Shown piece by piece: positions 6,016 through 23,587 of a stretch of DNA of 32,105 nucleotides. Origin of the DNA: Holophagae bacterium (lineage in GTDB: Bacteria; Acidobacteriota; Thermoanaerobaculia; Thermoanaerobaculales; Sulfomarinibacteraceae). The stretch's first letter is position 1, and every line of letters begins with the position of its first letter. The notes below the pieces were generated by a model. That model saw only the letters and a program-made list of their open reading frames with translations, was not told where the DNA came from and did no database searches. A program made the translations under genes and the position numbers. The stretch covers positions 1 to 32,105 of the forward strand of contig JAUXDC010000009.1 in NCBI GenBank assembly GCA_030618605.1, given 5' to 3'.

Positions 6016-6759
6016 CTACTCCGGGTCAGCGATGCAGGCGATATCCTCCGGTGGCGACGGCAACCAGGCGCTCTCCGGCGGTCCGTCAGCAGCCTGCCAG
6101 TCATTAAAATCAAAGGTACTGACGGCTCCCTGAGGATCTCTGACGACGACCTGGGCCGGCAGTCCGTCCTCACCGACGAGAATTTCTACCCTCGAAACGC
6201 CCCCAACTTCACGGGGAATGAGAATCAAACCTCGCTCCCCTTCTGCGACGATAGAAAACTGTGCAACCGCCGCCCGAGGATCCAGGACCGCAATCAGCGG
6301 AATCCTCTCCCACTCCTCAGCCGTCAAAAGATGATCGTCACAACTCAGATTCTCGAAATCCAGGAGACGGACCAATCGACCGCTGAGACCCATCCACCGA
6401 ACGACCGGACTTCCGGTGGCAAAAAGCGCCTTGTCGGGCCACGCGACCCAGACCTGACCGTTGACCTGCTCTCCAAGACTCATCCCCGGTGGAACGTACT
6501 CTTGAGTGTATGAAGCGGTCCAGGTTCCCCGGGTTTGAAGTGCAGTACCCAAAGCCTGCAGCCGTTCCATCGCCGGATCCCGGTCGGCAACTGCCGTACC
6601 GGAAACCAGAATGGCGATTACTGCAAAAACAAGAAAAAAGAAACGCAGAGGCGCAGAGACGCAGAGCTCGACGTTGAACGTTGAACCGTTGATCTTGGAC
6701 GTTCCTTTCCTAACCCCTAATCCCTCATCCCTCATCCCTAATCCCTTACTGGCTACCAT
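6016..6759 (-). CDS. LolA-like periplasmic protein with repeat-derived signal peptide
   Basis: The product (247 residues from the ATG at 6759) looks like an outer-membrane lipoprotein carrier or related LolA-fold protein. It has an exported N-terminus, then a mean-length beta-rich domain with the pattern of LolA C-terminal strands (ILVGEDGLPAQVVVRDPQG followed by STFDFNDW). The similarity is a family-level guess. The hydrophobic stretch LRFFFLVFAVIAILVSG ends with an AVA signal peptidase I site. Oddly, the coding bases for LCVSAPLR and the following phenylalanine-rich run are the dispersed CGCAGAG-type repeat read on its reverse strand. The preceding 30 codons cover other tandem repeats. I prefer 6759 over 6765 because GGAG lies 6 nt before it. 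The gene starts 10 nt after purH ends. Confidence 0.65.
   Translation of the reverse strand: MVASKGLGMRDEGLGVRKGTSKINGSTFNVELCVSAPLRFFFLVFAVIAILVSGTAVADRDPAMERLQALGTALQTRGTWTASYTQEYVPPGMSLGEQVNGQVWVAWPDKALFATGSPVVRWMGLSGRLVRLLDFENLSCDDHLLTAEEWERIPLIAVLDPRAAVAQFSIVAEGERGLILIPREVGGVSRVEILVGEDGLPAQVVVRDPQGAVSTFDFNDWQAADGPPESAWLPSPPEDIACIADPE
6642..6666 (+). repeat. Dispersed repeat, three 8-bp CGCAGAG-type units
   Basis: Three head-to-tail units ACGCAGAG, GCGCAGAG and ACGCAGAG follow an A-rich tract at 6624-6643. The reverse complement of the copy at 22680-22704 differs from this one at a single base. Here the repeat lies inside the LolA-like reading frame. Confidence 0.85.
6671..6692 (+). repeat. 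Tandem 7-bp ACGTTGA repeat
   Basis: ACGTTGA occurs twice head-to-tail, followed by ACCGTTGA. It lies between two other short tandem arrays in the 5' part of the LolA-like gene. Confidence 0.6.
6715..6749 (+). repeat. Tandem 7-bp CCCTAAT/CCCTCAT repeat
   Basis: Five 7-bp units follow one another: CCCTAAT, CCCTCAT, CCCTCAT, CCCTAAT and CCCTTAC. On the minus strand they encode a Gly/Arg-rich stretch near the start of the LolA-like gene. Confidence 0.85.
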
Positions 6760-6769
6760 CCCCATCTCC

Positions 6770-8308
6770 TCAATGCTTAAAATGCCGACGGCCGGTCAAA
6801 ACCATCGCCACTCCCATTGCATCACAGGCCTCAACGACAGCCTTGTCCCGAATGGACCCACCCGGTTGAATCACGGCCTGAATGCCCGCCTGATGCAGAG
6901 CTTCAACGCCGTCCGGGAATGGGAAAAATGCGTCCGAGGCGGCCACAGAGCCCTCAAGATCATGTCCAATTTCGATCGCCTTGGAGACCGCAATCTTGGC
7001 CGCATCGACCCTGCTCATCTGCCCGGCGCCAATACCGAGAATGCGGTCCTCGGCGCCTACGACGATGGCGTTGGACCCGACGTGTTTGACAACCCTCCAT
7101 GCCAGTTCCATGGCCCTGCTCTCGGCGTCGGAAGGCGCTCTCTTAGTGGCCACACTCCGGTTCTCGCCGTCCCACCCGTGGTCCCCCTGCTGGATCACGA
7201 AACCACCGTCAATGGCCTTGACCACGGTGGCGGTCTCGCTCGGGCGCTCAGCTTCGAGTACACGCAGATTCTTCTTAGTTGCAAAGACCTCGAGAGCCTC
7301 CTCGGAAAAACCGGGTGCGATCACGACCTCGGCGAACTGTTCGACAACCTTTTCGGCGAAGGACCGATCGACCGGACGGTTTGCGGCGATGACACCACCA
7401 AAGGCCGACAACGGGTCCGTCGCTCGGGCCTTGAGGAAGGCCTGATCCATCGCCGGATCAAGGGCGACACCACAGGGATTGGCATGTTTGATCACCGCAA
7501 CTCCCGGGCCGGGAAGGTCCCACACCAATCGCCACGCCCCGGTGGCGTCTCCCAGGTTGTTGTACGACAACTCCTTGCCCTGCATCTGCCGTGCCGAAGC
7601 CAGACCGGACGGGGGTATCGACCGAGCCAGTATGCCCCACTGGTGAGGATTTTCGCCATACCGGAGTTGTGTTTCATCCCCCATCAGGAGATCCTCTGCC
7701 ACCGCTGCGGCTTGCGAAGCCATACCACCCTGGACGAGGGCGGGAAGATGGGTCGAGATCGCCGCGTCATAAGCAGCCGTGTGGCGGTAGGCCTTGATCG
7801 CCAGCCGTTGCCGGGTTTCTTGGGTGATCACCCCAGCGGCCAATTCACTGAGAAAAATCTCGTAGTCTTCTGGATCGACGATAACCGCTACCCGCGCATG
7901 GTTCTTGGCCGCCGCCCTGATCAGACTGGGACCGCCGATATCGATCTGTTCAACCGCCTGCTCGAGCGTCACACCGTCGGTGGCCACGGTCTCCCGAAAT
8001 GGGTAGAGGTTGACCACGACCACATCGATCTCCGGGAGGTCCATTTCGGCCAATTGAGCTCGATGCGCCGTTGTCGGGGCCGCCAGGATTCCCGCGAAGA
8101 CCTTCGGATGAAGGGTCTTGACACGGCCGTTCAGGATCTCCGGATATCCAGTGAAATCACTGACCTCTGCCGGGTTACAGCCCGCCTTTTTGAGTGCCCT
8201 CGCCGTTCCACCGGTGGAGAGGATGGACCAACCCAACTCTTCGAGGCCAAGGCCAAGACGATCGAGGCCATTCTTGTCCGAAACCGAAATCAATACCGTT
8301 CCACCCAT
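6770..8308 (-). CDS. purH: Bifunctional AICAR formyltransferase / IMP cyclohydrolase
   Basis: PurH carries out the last two steps of de novo purine synthesis: formylation of AICAR and closure of the ring to IMP. The 512-residue length is standard. The N-terminal cyclohydrolase part (about 1-190) contains STGGTA, GRVKTLHPKVFAGIL and VVVNLYPF. The C-terminal formyltransferase part has the catalytic Lys-His pair K274/H275 in VIKHANPCG, the segment SDAFFPFPDGVE, and the family end GRRHFKH. A GGGAGGGG sequence lies about 6 nt before the ATG. It is the first gene of a three-gene minus-strand operon with the LolA-like and M23 genes, an unusual pairing of purine synthesis with envelope functions. Confidence 0.98.
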   Translation of the reverse strand: MGGTVLISVSDKNGLDRLGLGLEELGWSILSTGGTARALKKAGCNPAEVSDFTGYPEILNGRVKTLHPKVFAGILAAPTTAHRAQLAEMDLPEIDVVVVNLYPFRETVATDGVTLEQAVEQIDIGGPSLIRAAAKNHARVAVIVDPEDYEIFLSELAAGVITQETRQRLAIKAYRHTAAYDAAISTHLPALVQGGMASQAAAVAEDLLMGDETQLRYGENPHQWGILARSIPPSGLASARQMQGKELSYNNLGDATGAWRLVWDLPGPGVAVIKHANPCGVALDPAMDQAFLKARATDPLSAFGGVIAANRPVDRSFAEKVVEQFAEVVIAPGFSEEALEVFATKKNLRVLEAERPSETATVVKAIDGGFVIQQGDHGWDGENRSVATKRAPSDAESRAMELAWRVVKHVGSNAIVVGAEDRILGIGAGQMSRVDAAKIAVSKAIEIGHDLEGSVAASDAFFPFPDGVEALHQAGIQAVIQPGGSIRDKAVVEACDAMGVAMVLTGRRHFKH

Positions 8309-22360: not shown

Positions 22361-22517
22361 ACCTTGTAGATTCTGTCTCCGCTGGTCGAAAAACTCGTCC
22401 TCCAAAAAAGCTTCCAAAGGATCTGGGACATCGGCTGGTACCGCCTCAGGAAAGGAGCTTAAGCCTCAAATAGAGCAGCCACAAAAAGGCAGGAAAAAGC
22501 ACAAAAAAGGGGACAAA

Positions 22518-22534
22518 AACGCAGAGACGCAGAG
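22518..22534 (+). repeat. CGCAGAG-type repeat, left copy of an inverted pair
   Basis: Two 8-bp units (ACGCAGAG twice, preceded by A) follow an A-rich tract, as at 6642. The copy at 22680 lies in inverse orientation. Confidence 0.8.
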
Positions 22535-22679
22535 TTCAGGGAACTCTCTGCGCAAGGCGATGCCGCCGTTGCCAACCTTATCCGTCAAAGAGAAAGAAAA
22601 TGAGCCAATCCTTAAATCAAATCGGCAACCACATATTCAACGCTTCCGCCGAATTCACGGTCCACCTCCACAATTCCTG

Positions 22680-22704
22680 CTCTGCGTCTCTGCGTCTCTG
22701 CGTT
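22680..22704 (-). repeat. CGCAGAG-type repeat, right copy of an inverted pair
   Basis: Three 8-bp units on the minus strand. They match the repeat at 6642-6666 except for one base. Confidence 0.85.
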
Positions 22705-22810
22705 GATTTCTTCGTCTGACACCACCCATTTCAGGAGATTCTTGAGCCTGCATACTTCTGCTTTGGATGTGGCCAAGGGGCGCGCTGTTTTTGGTGCCGG
22801 CAGTACCCGC

Positions 22811-23587
22811 TCATATGAGCGATCTTGATTGACCACCATCGACGTTGAGGCACGCCCCTGTGATCCACGAGGCACGGTCGGAGGCAAGGAATGCCACAAC
22901 GTCACCGATCTCTTCAGCAGTACCGAATCGACCCATCGGAATTTCCGATGCAACAAATGCAGCCATGGCCTCCGGATCGGCCAAACACTTCTTGTCCCAG
23001 GAGCCACCGGGAAATCGAATTGACCCCGGCGCGATCGAATTGACTCGAATGCCGTCAGGGGCCAGCTCCAGAGCCAGGGCCTTGCTCAGCCCGATGACCG
23101 CGGCTTTGGTCGTGTGGTAGATGCTCATACCGGGGCCACCGTACTCCCGACCGAAGATCGAGGTCGTGAAGAGAATCACTCCTTGACGGCGTTTTCGCAT
23201 CGCCGGAACCACTGATCGCGTCAACTGCATATGACTCATCAGATTGAGATCGATGGTCGATTGCCAGTCCTCGTCCGTCGTATCGCAGATCCCACCGCGG
23301 CGGTTGCCTCCAACATTGTTGACCAAGACCTCAACCGGCCCCAGTCGATCCCCTATTTGCGTCATCAATCGTTCCCGATCATCAGCCGAGGTGACATCAG
23401 CGACTACCGCCAGGACCGTGGCACCGGTCCCGGCTATCGTCTCAGCGGTCTGACCCAGAGTCTCCTCGTCGCGCGCACAGATTGCAACTTTCGCGCCCTC
23501 GGCCGCCATCGCCGTCGCCATCGCTTTTCCCAGACCACGGCTTGCGCCAGTGACCAGAACTACTCGTCCGATCAGCCCCAAATCCAT
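22811..23587 (-). CDS. Short-chain dehydrogenase/reductase (FabG-like)
   Basis: A classical SDR of 258 residues. The NAD(P)-binding motif TGASRGLG is at residues 13-20, NNVGG at 90-94, and the catalytic residues are N115, S143, Y157 and K161 (YHTTK). The tail follows the family pattern PMGRFGTAEEIGDVVAFLASD and ends ITGACLNVDGG. A basic residue after the glycine motif (R17) and R39 suggest NADPH preference, a soft inference. The start follows GAGGAGG by 5 nt. Substrate unknown; 3-oxoacyl reductase or sugar/alcohol dehydrogenase are both possible. A perfect 14-bp palindrome (22808-22821) covers the stop codon. Confidence 0.93.
   Translation of the reverse strand: MDLGLIGRVVLVTGASRGLGKAMATAMAAEGAKVAICARDEETLGQTAETIAGTGATVLAVVADVTSADDRERLMTQIGDRLGPVEVLVNNVGGNRRGGICDTTDEDWQSTIDLNLMSHMQLTRSVVPAMRKRRQGVILFTTSIFGREYGGPGMSIYHTTKAAVIGLSKALALELAPDGIRVNSIAPGSIRFPGGSWDKKCLADPEAMAAFVASEIPMGRFGTAEEIGDVVAFLASDRASWITGACLNVDGGQSRSLI

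Follow-up and report, generated by a model that had tools for sequence, protein, structure and literature searches.

In a Holophagae bacterium from an uncultured acidobacterial genus, dispersed repeats of the intergenic kind were probably captured neutrally at the tight junction between purH and a lolA-like gene, where they would serve as a translated leader. We consider the chance slightly better than even that this junction captured two unrelated dispersed repeats as a translated start within one genus, with 38 codons each. The window, i.e., the whole stretch of 32,105 nucleotides that was analyzed, is contig C195 of the genome G000 (3.83 Mb, 396 contigs) and was compared with the sister species G001, G002, and G003, with the nearest outgroup genus (G004), and with more distant relatives. 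The locus offers a concrete example from a free-living bacterium of how noncoding dispersed repeats may become protein sequence, with the ancestral state visible in relatives. If the reading is true, short overlapping gene junctions would be recurrent sites at which mobile or repeat DNA turns into N-terminal protein, and the n-regions of signal peptides would be tolerant landing sites for such DNA.

The lolA-like gene and the repeats at its start

The gene of interest lies directly downstream of purH (Table 1). Its first ATG (6765) opens a coding sequence of 750 nt for a product of 249 aa, and the ATG at 6759, which gives 247 aa, is the likely start. The Shine–Dalgarno-like motif overlaps the purH stop codon TGA (6772-6770), which adjoins lolA, and a motif is present at the same position in G002 (GAGGAG) and G003 (GGGAG). 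With 28.1 bits, the product passes the gathering threshold of Pfam PF03548 (cut-off 23.6), and 22 of the 23 aligned orthologues match this family with an E-value of 0.001 or better. A profile built on these 23 sequences retrieved 13 PDB chains (best E 2.6e-14), all of them LolA. The mature part belongs to the LolA family, and sequence profiles suffice to assign the fold family. Orthologues were identified in 42 of 60 relatives. As the score against the LolA equivalog model TIGR00547 (NCBI/NCBIfam) stayed below the cut-off (36.7 vs 112 bits), we use the name LolA-like and do not treat the product as a certified LolA equivalog.

Table 1. Features around the lolA start and intergenic copies of the repeat R1 in the window.
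Feature	Position	Strand	Basis
purH (AICAR transformylase/IMP cyclohydrolase)	6770..8308	-	Pfam PF01808, PF02142
Shine–Dalgarno-like GAGGAG	6766..6771	-	sequence; 6 nt before ATG 6759
LolA-like outer-membrane lipoprotein carrier CDS	6016..6765	-	Pfam, PDB profile match, orthologues
7-mer array, GGGATTA-type in gene sense (CCTAATC on plus strand)	6709..6746	-	Tandem Repeats Finder
7-mer array, TTCAACG/GTCCAACG-type in gene sense (TTGAACG-type on plus strand)	6670..6704	-	pattern search
Dispersed 8-mer repeat R1, CTCTGCGY in gene sense	6644..6666	-	pattern search
Hydrophobic signal core FFFLVFAVIAILV	6604..6642	-	homologues in G001 and G004, both without R1 in lolA
A-V-A before mature start (DRDPAM...)	6586..6594	-	read from sequence; in 4/4 genus members
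R1 copy, intergenic, one of an inverted pair	22520..22534	+	pattern match
R1 copy, intergenic, opposite orientation	22680..22702	-	pattern match

Three stacked tandem repeats fill the space between ATG 6759 and the signal core, so that the N-terminus reads MGMVASKGLGMRDEGLGVRKGTSKINGSTFNVELCVSAPLR, then FFFLVFAVIAILV, and then SGTAVA|DRDPAM. The GGGATTA-type array (5.4 copies, score 55) codes for GLGMRDEGLGV, and related arrays are present elsewhere in the G000 genome. The TTCAACG-type array, whose 7-mer has seven matches in the genome when one mismatch is allowed, codes for GTSKINGSTFNV. R1 reads CGCAGAGR on the plus strand and codes for LCVSAPL(R) in the sense of lolA. From the start codon to the core boundary, the extension comprises 114 nt or 38 codons (6646-6759), and it would encode peptides such as INGSTFNVELCVSAPLR and DEGLGVR. 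A preliminary description of the window had read the CGCAGAG repeat on the reverse strand as LCVSAPLR and had regarded about 35 codons ahead of the core as tandem repeats as well; the arrays listed in Table 1 bear out both statements.

Orthologues and the proposed origin of the extension

The repeat block of G000 recurs in G002 and G003 with identical length, without frameshift and within the same 750-nt coding sequence, and the LolA-like proteins of these two species are 89-93% identical to that of the window. The three genomes are separate MAGs (the loci of G002 and G003 stem from GenBank JAUWTC01 and JAOZPW01), which led us to reject an assembly artefact. In G004, lolA starts 8 nt past the purH stop without any repeat and encodes a short signal peptide (MNRSFHCFFFAGLTALL..., MNRSFH-CFFFAGL); likewise, the lolA ATG follows purH by 3-7 nt in several order-level outgroups, again without the repeat. 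The comparison of orthologues that had been proposed as a check supports the earlier suggestion that the repeat extended or replaced the original N-terminus, as the outgroups begin right after purH and shortly before the core.

The fourth member of the genus, G001, also carries an extension; this one aligns to a dispersed MITE-like family, termed R2, and not to the R1 stack. Full copies of R2 measure 186 bp (range 181-186), with 19-bp terminal inverted repeats (TIRs; GGGTYCGCGCAAGAATAAC) and TWA duplications (TAA...TAA, TTA...TTA); the same TAA or TTA stands on both flanks in 5 of the 12 full-length copies. R2 resembles MITEs in its TIRs, its target-site duplication, and its length of about 186 bp, which is too small for a transposase; accordingly it holds no transposase gene, and a transposase driving R2 was not found. 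Neither the window nor the R2 loci L065-L067 showed an RNA family in a search of Rfam. Recognizable copies or fragments of R2 number 2-5 per genome (loci L147-L160 in G000-G004, e.g., G001:C241:7866-8051). The copy in G001 lolA differs from a typical MITE in being truncated and in supplying a start codon: R2 adjoins the purH stop codon TAA, its 3' end is missing, and the ATG inside it is the sole in-frame ATG/GTG/TTG before the core. At the boundary, R2 and the core share the letters GTTTC, which would be compatible with a deletion at microhomology. The window element, in contrast, is a stack of tandem repeats and not a MITE. All four species (L018, L019, L017, and the window) have exactly 114 nt from start codon to core boundary, with unrelated sequence in G001; that two unrelated elements gave extensions of equal length may be chance.

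From these comparisons, we infer the following order of events. The ancestor would have had a short lolA signal peptide starting a few bases past the purH stop, and repeat DNA of the intergenic kind would then have invaded the purH–lolA junction within the genus. In G000, G002, and G003, the 7-mer arrays and the CGCAGAG 8-mer would have settled just downstream of a start codon preceded by a Shine–Dalgarno motif, while in G001 the 3' end of the MITE-like R2 at the purH TAA would have disappeared along with the original start of lolA, and R2 would now provide the start codon. Because the frame of the junction is open in each case, ribosomes would read 38 repeat-coded residues, then the old hydrophobic core, and then the A-V-A site. 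The extension would act as a permissive, unconstrained n-region that is cut off by signal peptidase.

Probable translation of the extension, and the signal core

Several observations bear on whether the repeats are translated from the ATG upstream of them, as we suppose. The start codons M1/M3, located upstream of the repeat, are the sole ATG/GTG/TTG ahead of the core common to G000, G002, and G003. A mis-called start with the true one further downstream was rejected, since G000 has no ATG/GTG/TTG between M11 and the core, and M11 itself is absent in G002. In all three species, only the lolA frame is open through the block, while each of the other two frames holds 2-4 stops; this avoidance of stops is weak evidence, as only 4-4.5% of single changes create a stop. 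Variable sites at the first, second, and third codon position amount to 13/5/67 in the mature part and to 6/7/9 in the extension (Fisher p = 0.001). The mature LolA-like part is hence under strong purifying selection, and the extension lacks constraint at the amino-acid level, with no residue-level function visible.

The missing amino-acid-level selection also fits an untranslated spacer, and it is unlikely, though worth weighing, that lolA starts at a non-canonical codon beside the core. Such a codon exists, as G000, G002, and G003 have a CTG (6648-6646) next to the core, directly ahead of the conserved R-F-F; initiation there (MRFFFLVFAVIAIL...) would drop the extension, leave a short n-region resembling the outgroup signal peptides, and account for substitutions without codon-position bias. 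However, CTG starts are rare, the repeat ahead of the CTG contains no Shine–Dalgarno motif, G001 shows CTAC in place of CTG, and three species retain a good Shine–Dalgarno motif with ATG at the 5' end. Still less probable is an extension selected for a function, e.g., leader-based control of lolA translation or targeting by a long n-region. The 114 nt shared by four of four species in spite of two unrelated elements would speak for it, as would the constant length of the block, given that a nearby intergenic repeat block has 42 nt in its place in G003. These points are set against the absent amino-acid constraint, the chance that may explain the equal length in G001, and a sample of four species only.

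Neutral capture as a translated leader leaves the export signal to be considered. Sec signals combine a positive n-region, a hydrophobic h-region, and small residues at -3 and -1, and the leader, read from the sequence, shows a net charge of +4 by a crude count (0 in G003), a core with a maximum Kyte–Doolittle 11-mer average of 3.49, and A-V-A before D. The A-V-A is a probable signal peptidase I site, and it is plausible that the repeat-extended leader still functions in export. Simple Sec signals rarely have an n-region as long as the present one (about 40 residues), which counts against the capture reading. The tolerance suggested by this case is that of an n-region nearly free of sequence constraint and removed after export.

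The core residues are encoded directly outside the R1 array. The preliminary description had held that R1 itself made part of the hydrophobic core, which would amount to a new export signal, and the A-rich 5' flank usual for R1 (GAAGAAATTAA-CGCAGAG) does look like the antisense of core codons; this version is refuted, and we give it almost no credence, since G001 and G004 carry the same core start GTTTCTTT without R1. At the core position, G001 has R-FFVSVLAAITLLVSGTAVA with the DNA CGTTTCTTTG, and the core of G004 starts with the T-rich DNA GTTTCTTTTT; the T-rich start common to both shows that the core is ancestral and not repeat-derived. The resemblance between the core and the R1 flank is older than the repeat, and R1 supplies the n-region (LCVSAPL), not the h-region.

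Dispersal of the repeats and comparison with known systems

R1 is far more frequent in the window than expected by chance, with five matches compared to none in 200 first-order Markov resamplings. The 3.8-Mb genome holds 15 overlapping matches at 8-9 places; the backward-pattern control of this search lacks independence, since the tandem array, when reversed, still matches itself in part. Between 8 and 25 matches per genome were counted in G001-G004, and R1 was found in all members of the genus and in many relatives. About 58 of the 61 sites examined are intergenic, an approximate fraction as gene calls were crude (codon log-odds), and lolA is among the few exceptions. The intergenic occurrences reported earlier at 22518 and 22680 were recovered as the two copies given in Table 1. 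Both belong to a block (22366-22812) in place of which G003 has 42 nt; intergenic blocks of repeats are therefore not stable from one species to the next.

A second gene provides a parallel case of an R1-coded N-terminal extension. In G003, thpR (TIGR02258; RNA 2',3'-cyclic phosphodiesterase; L113:1498-2112, G003:C358) encodes MKGNKERNAETQRRREKNEEQ ahead of LRAFVAIELP, which corresponds to the opposite-strand reading of the CGCAGAG repeat (NAETQRRR). The closest orthologue, in G001, has a candidate TTG about 4 codons ahead of RAFVAIE. The start codon of the G003 gene overlaps the upstream stop as ATGA. In lolA and thpR alike, the repeat directly follows a start codon at a place where two genes adjoin closely. 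Together with the different element in a sister species, this parallel makes the idea of a general route to N-terminal extensions testable across genomes. For annotation, it should be kept in mind that stretches such as LCVSAPLR or NAETQRRR may precede genuine genes. A literature search for the repeat string CGCAGAGACGCAGAG or the peptide NAETQRRR gave no match.

The in-frame capture of dispersed repeats is already known, and what is new is the form it takes with lolA, R1, and R2. The best-known examples are Rickettsia palindromic elements (RPEs), i.e., palindromes about 150 bp long whose reading frame is conserved and that are located throughout proteins (PMC10969869). As with RPEs, short dispersed elements have apparently turned into translated in-frame parts of housekeeping proteins (PMC10969869), and in-frame insertion into a protein-coding gene was found for lolA in G000, G002, and G003 and for thpR in G003. 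R1 nevertheless falls outside the RPE class, as it is a short non-palindromic tandem array of an acidobacterial lineage with strand and frame varying by gene. The elements described here are octamer or heptamer arrays or a TIR element in arbitrary frame and strand (LCVSAPLR in lolA, NAETQRRR in thpR), and they are limited to the gene start, where they would form the n-region of a signal peptide. In Beggiatoaceae, TAACTGA heptamer repeats occur in intergenic regions upstream of start codons and are untranslated (PMC4679880). These share with the lolA arrays the 7-mer direct repeats at translation initiation regions (PMC4679880); the lolA 7-mers, however, come after the start codon and are apparently translated. 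The lolA case thus departs from the known ones in the elements and the lineage involved, in being restricted to the gene start, and in its signal-peptide context.

Regarding other occurrences of these repeats, the open frame of a GxxExxY-family gene in G001 (L126:1075-1491, G001:C178; TIGR04256, 133.8 bits) starts within a CGCAGAG array. Inverted CGCAGAG pairs are frequent in intergenic regions, with the copies about 160-400 bp apart and mostly unrelated sequence inside (window 22520-22702; L004 1501-1689; L012 1501-1684; L104 1455-1858; L106; L124). The most abundant repeat observed in this analysis was of the CACAAAAAGGC-type, which is intergenic at 22461-22511 of the window and has dozens of matches over the four related genomes searched.
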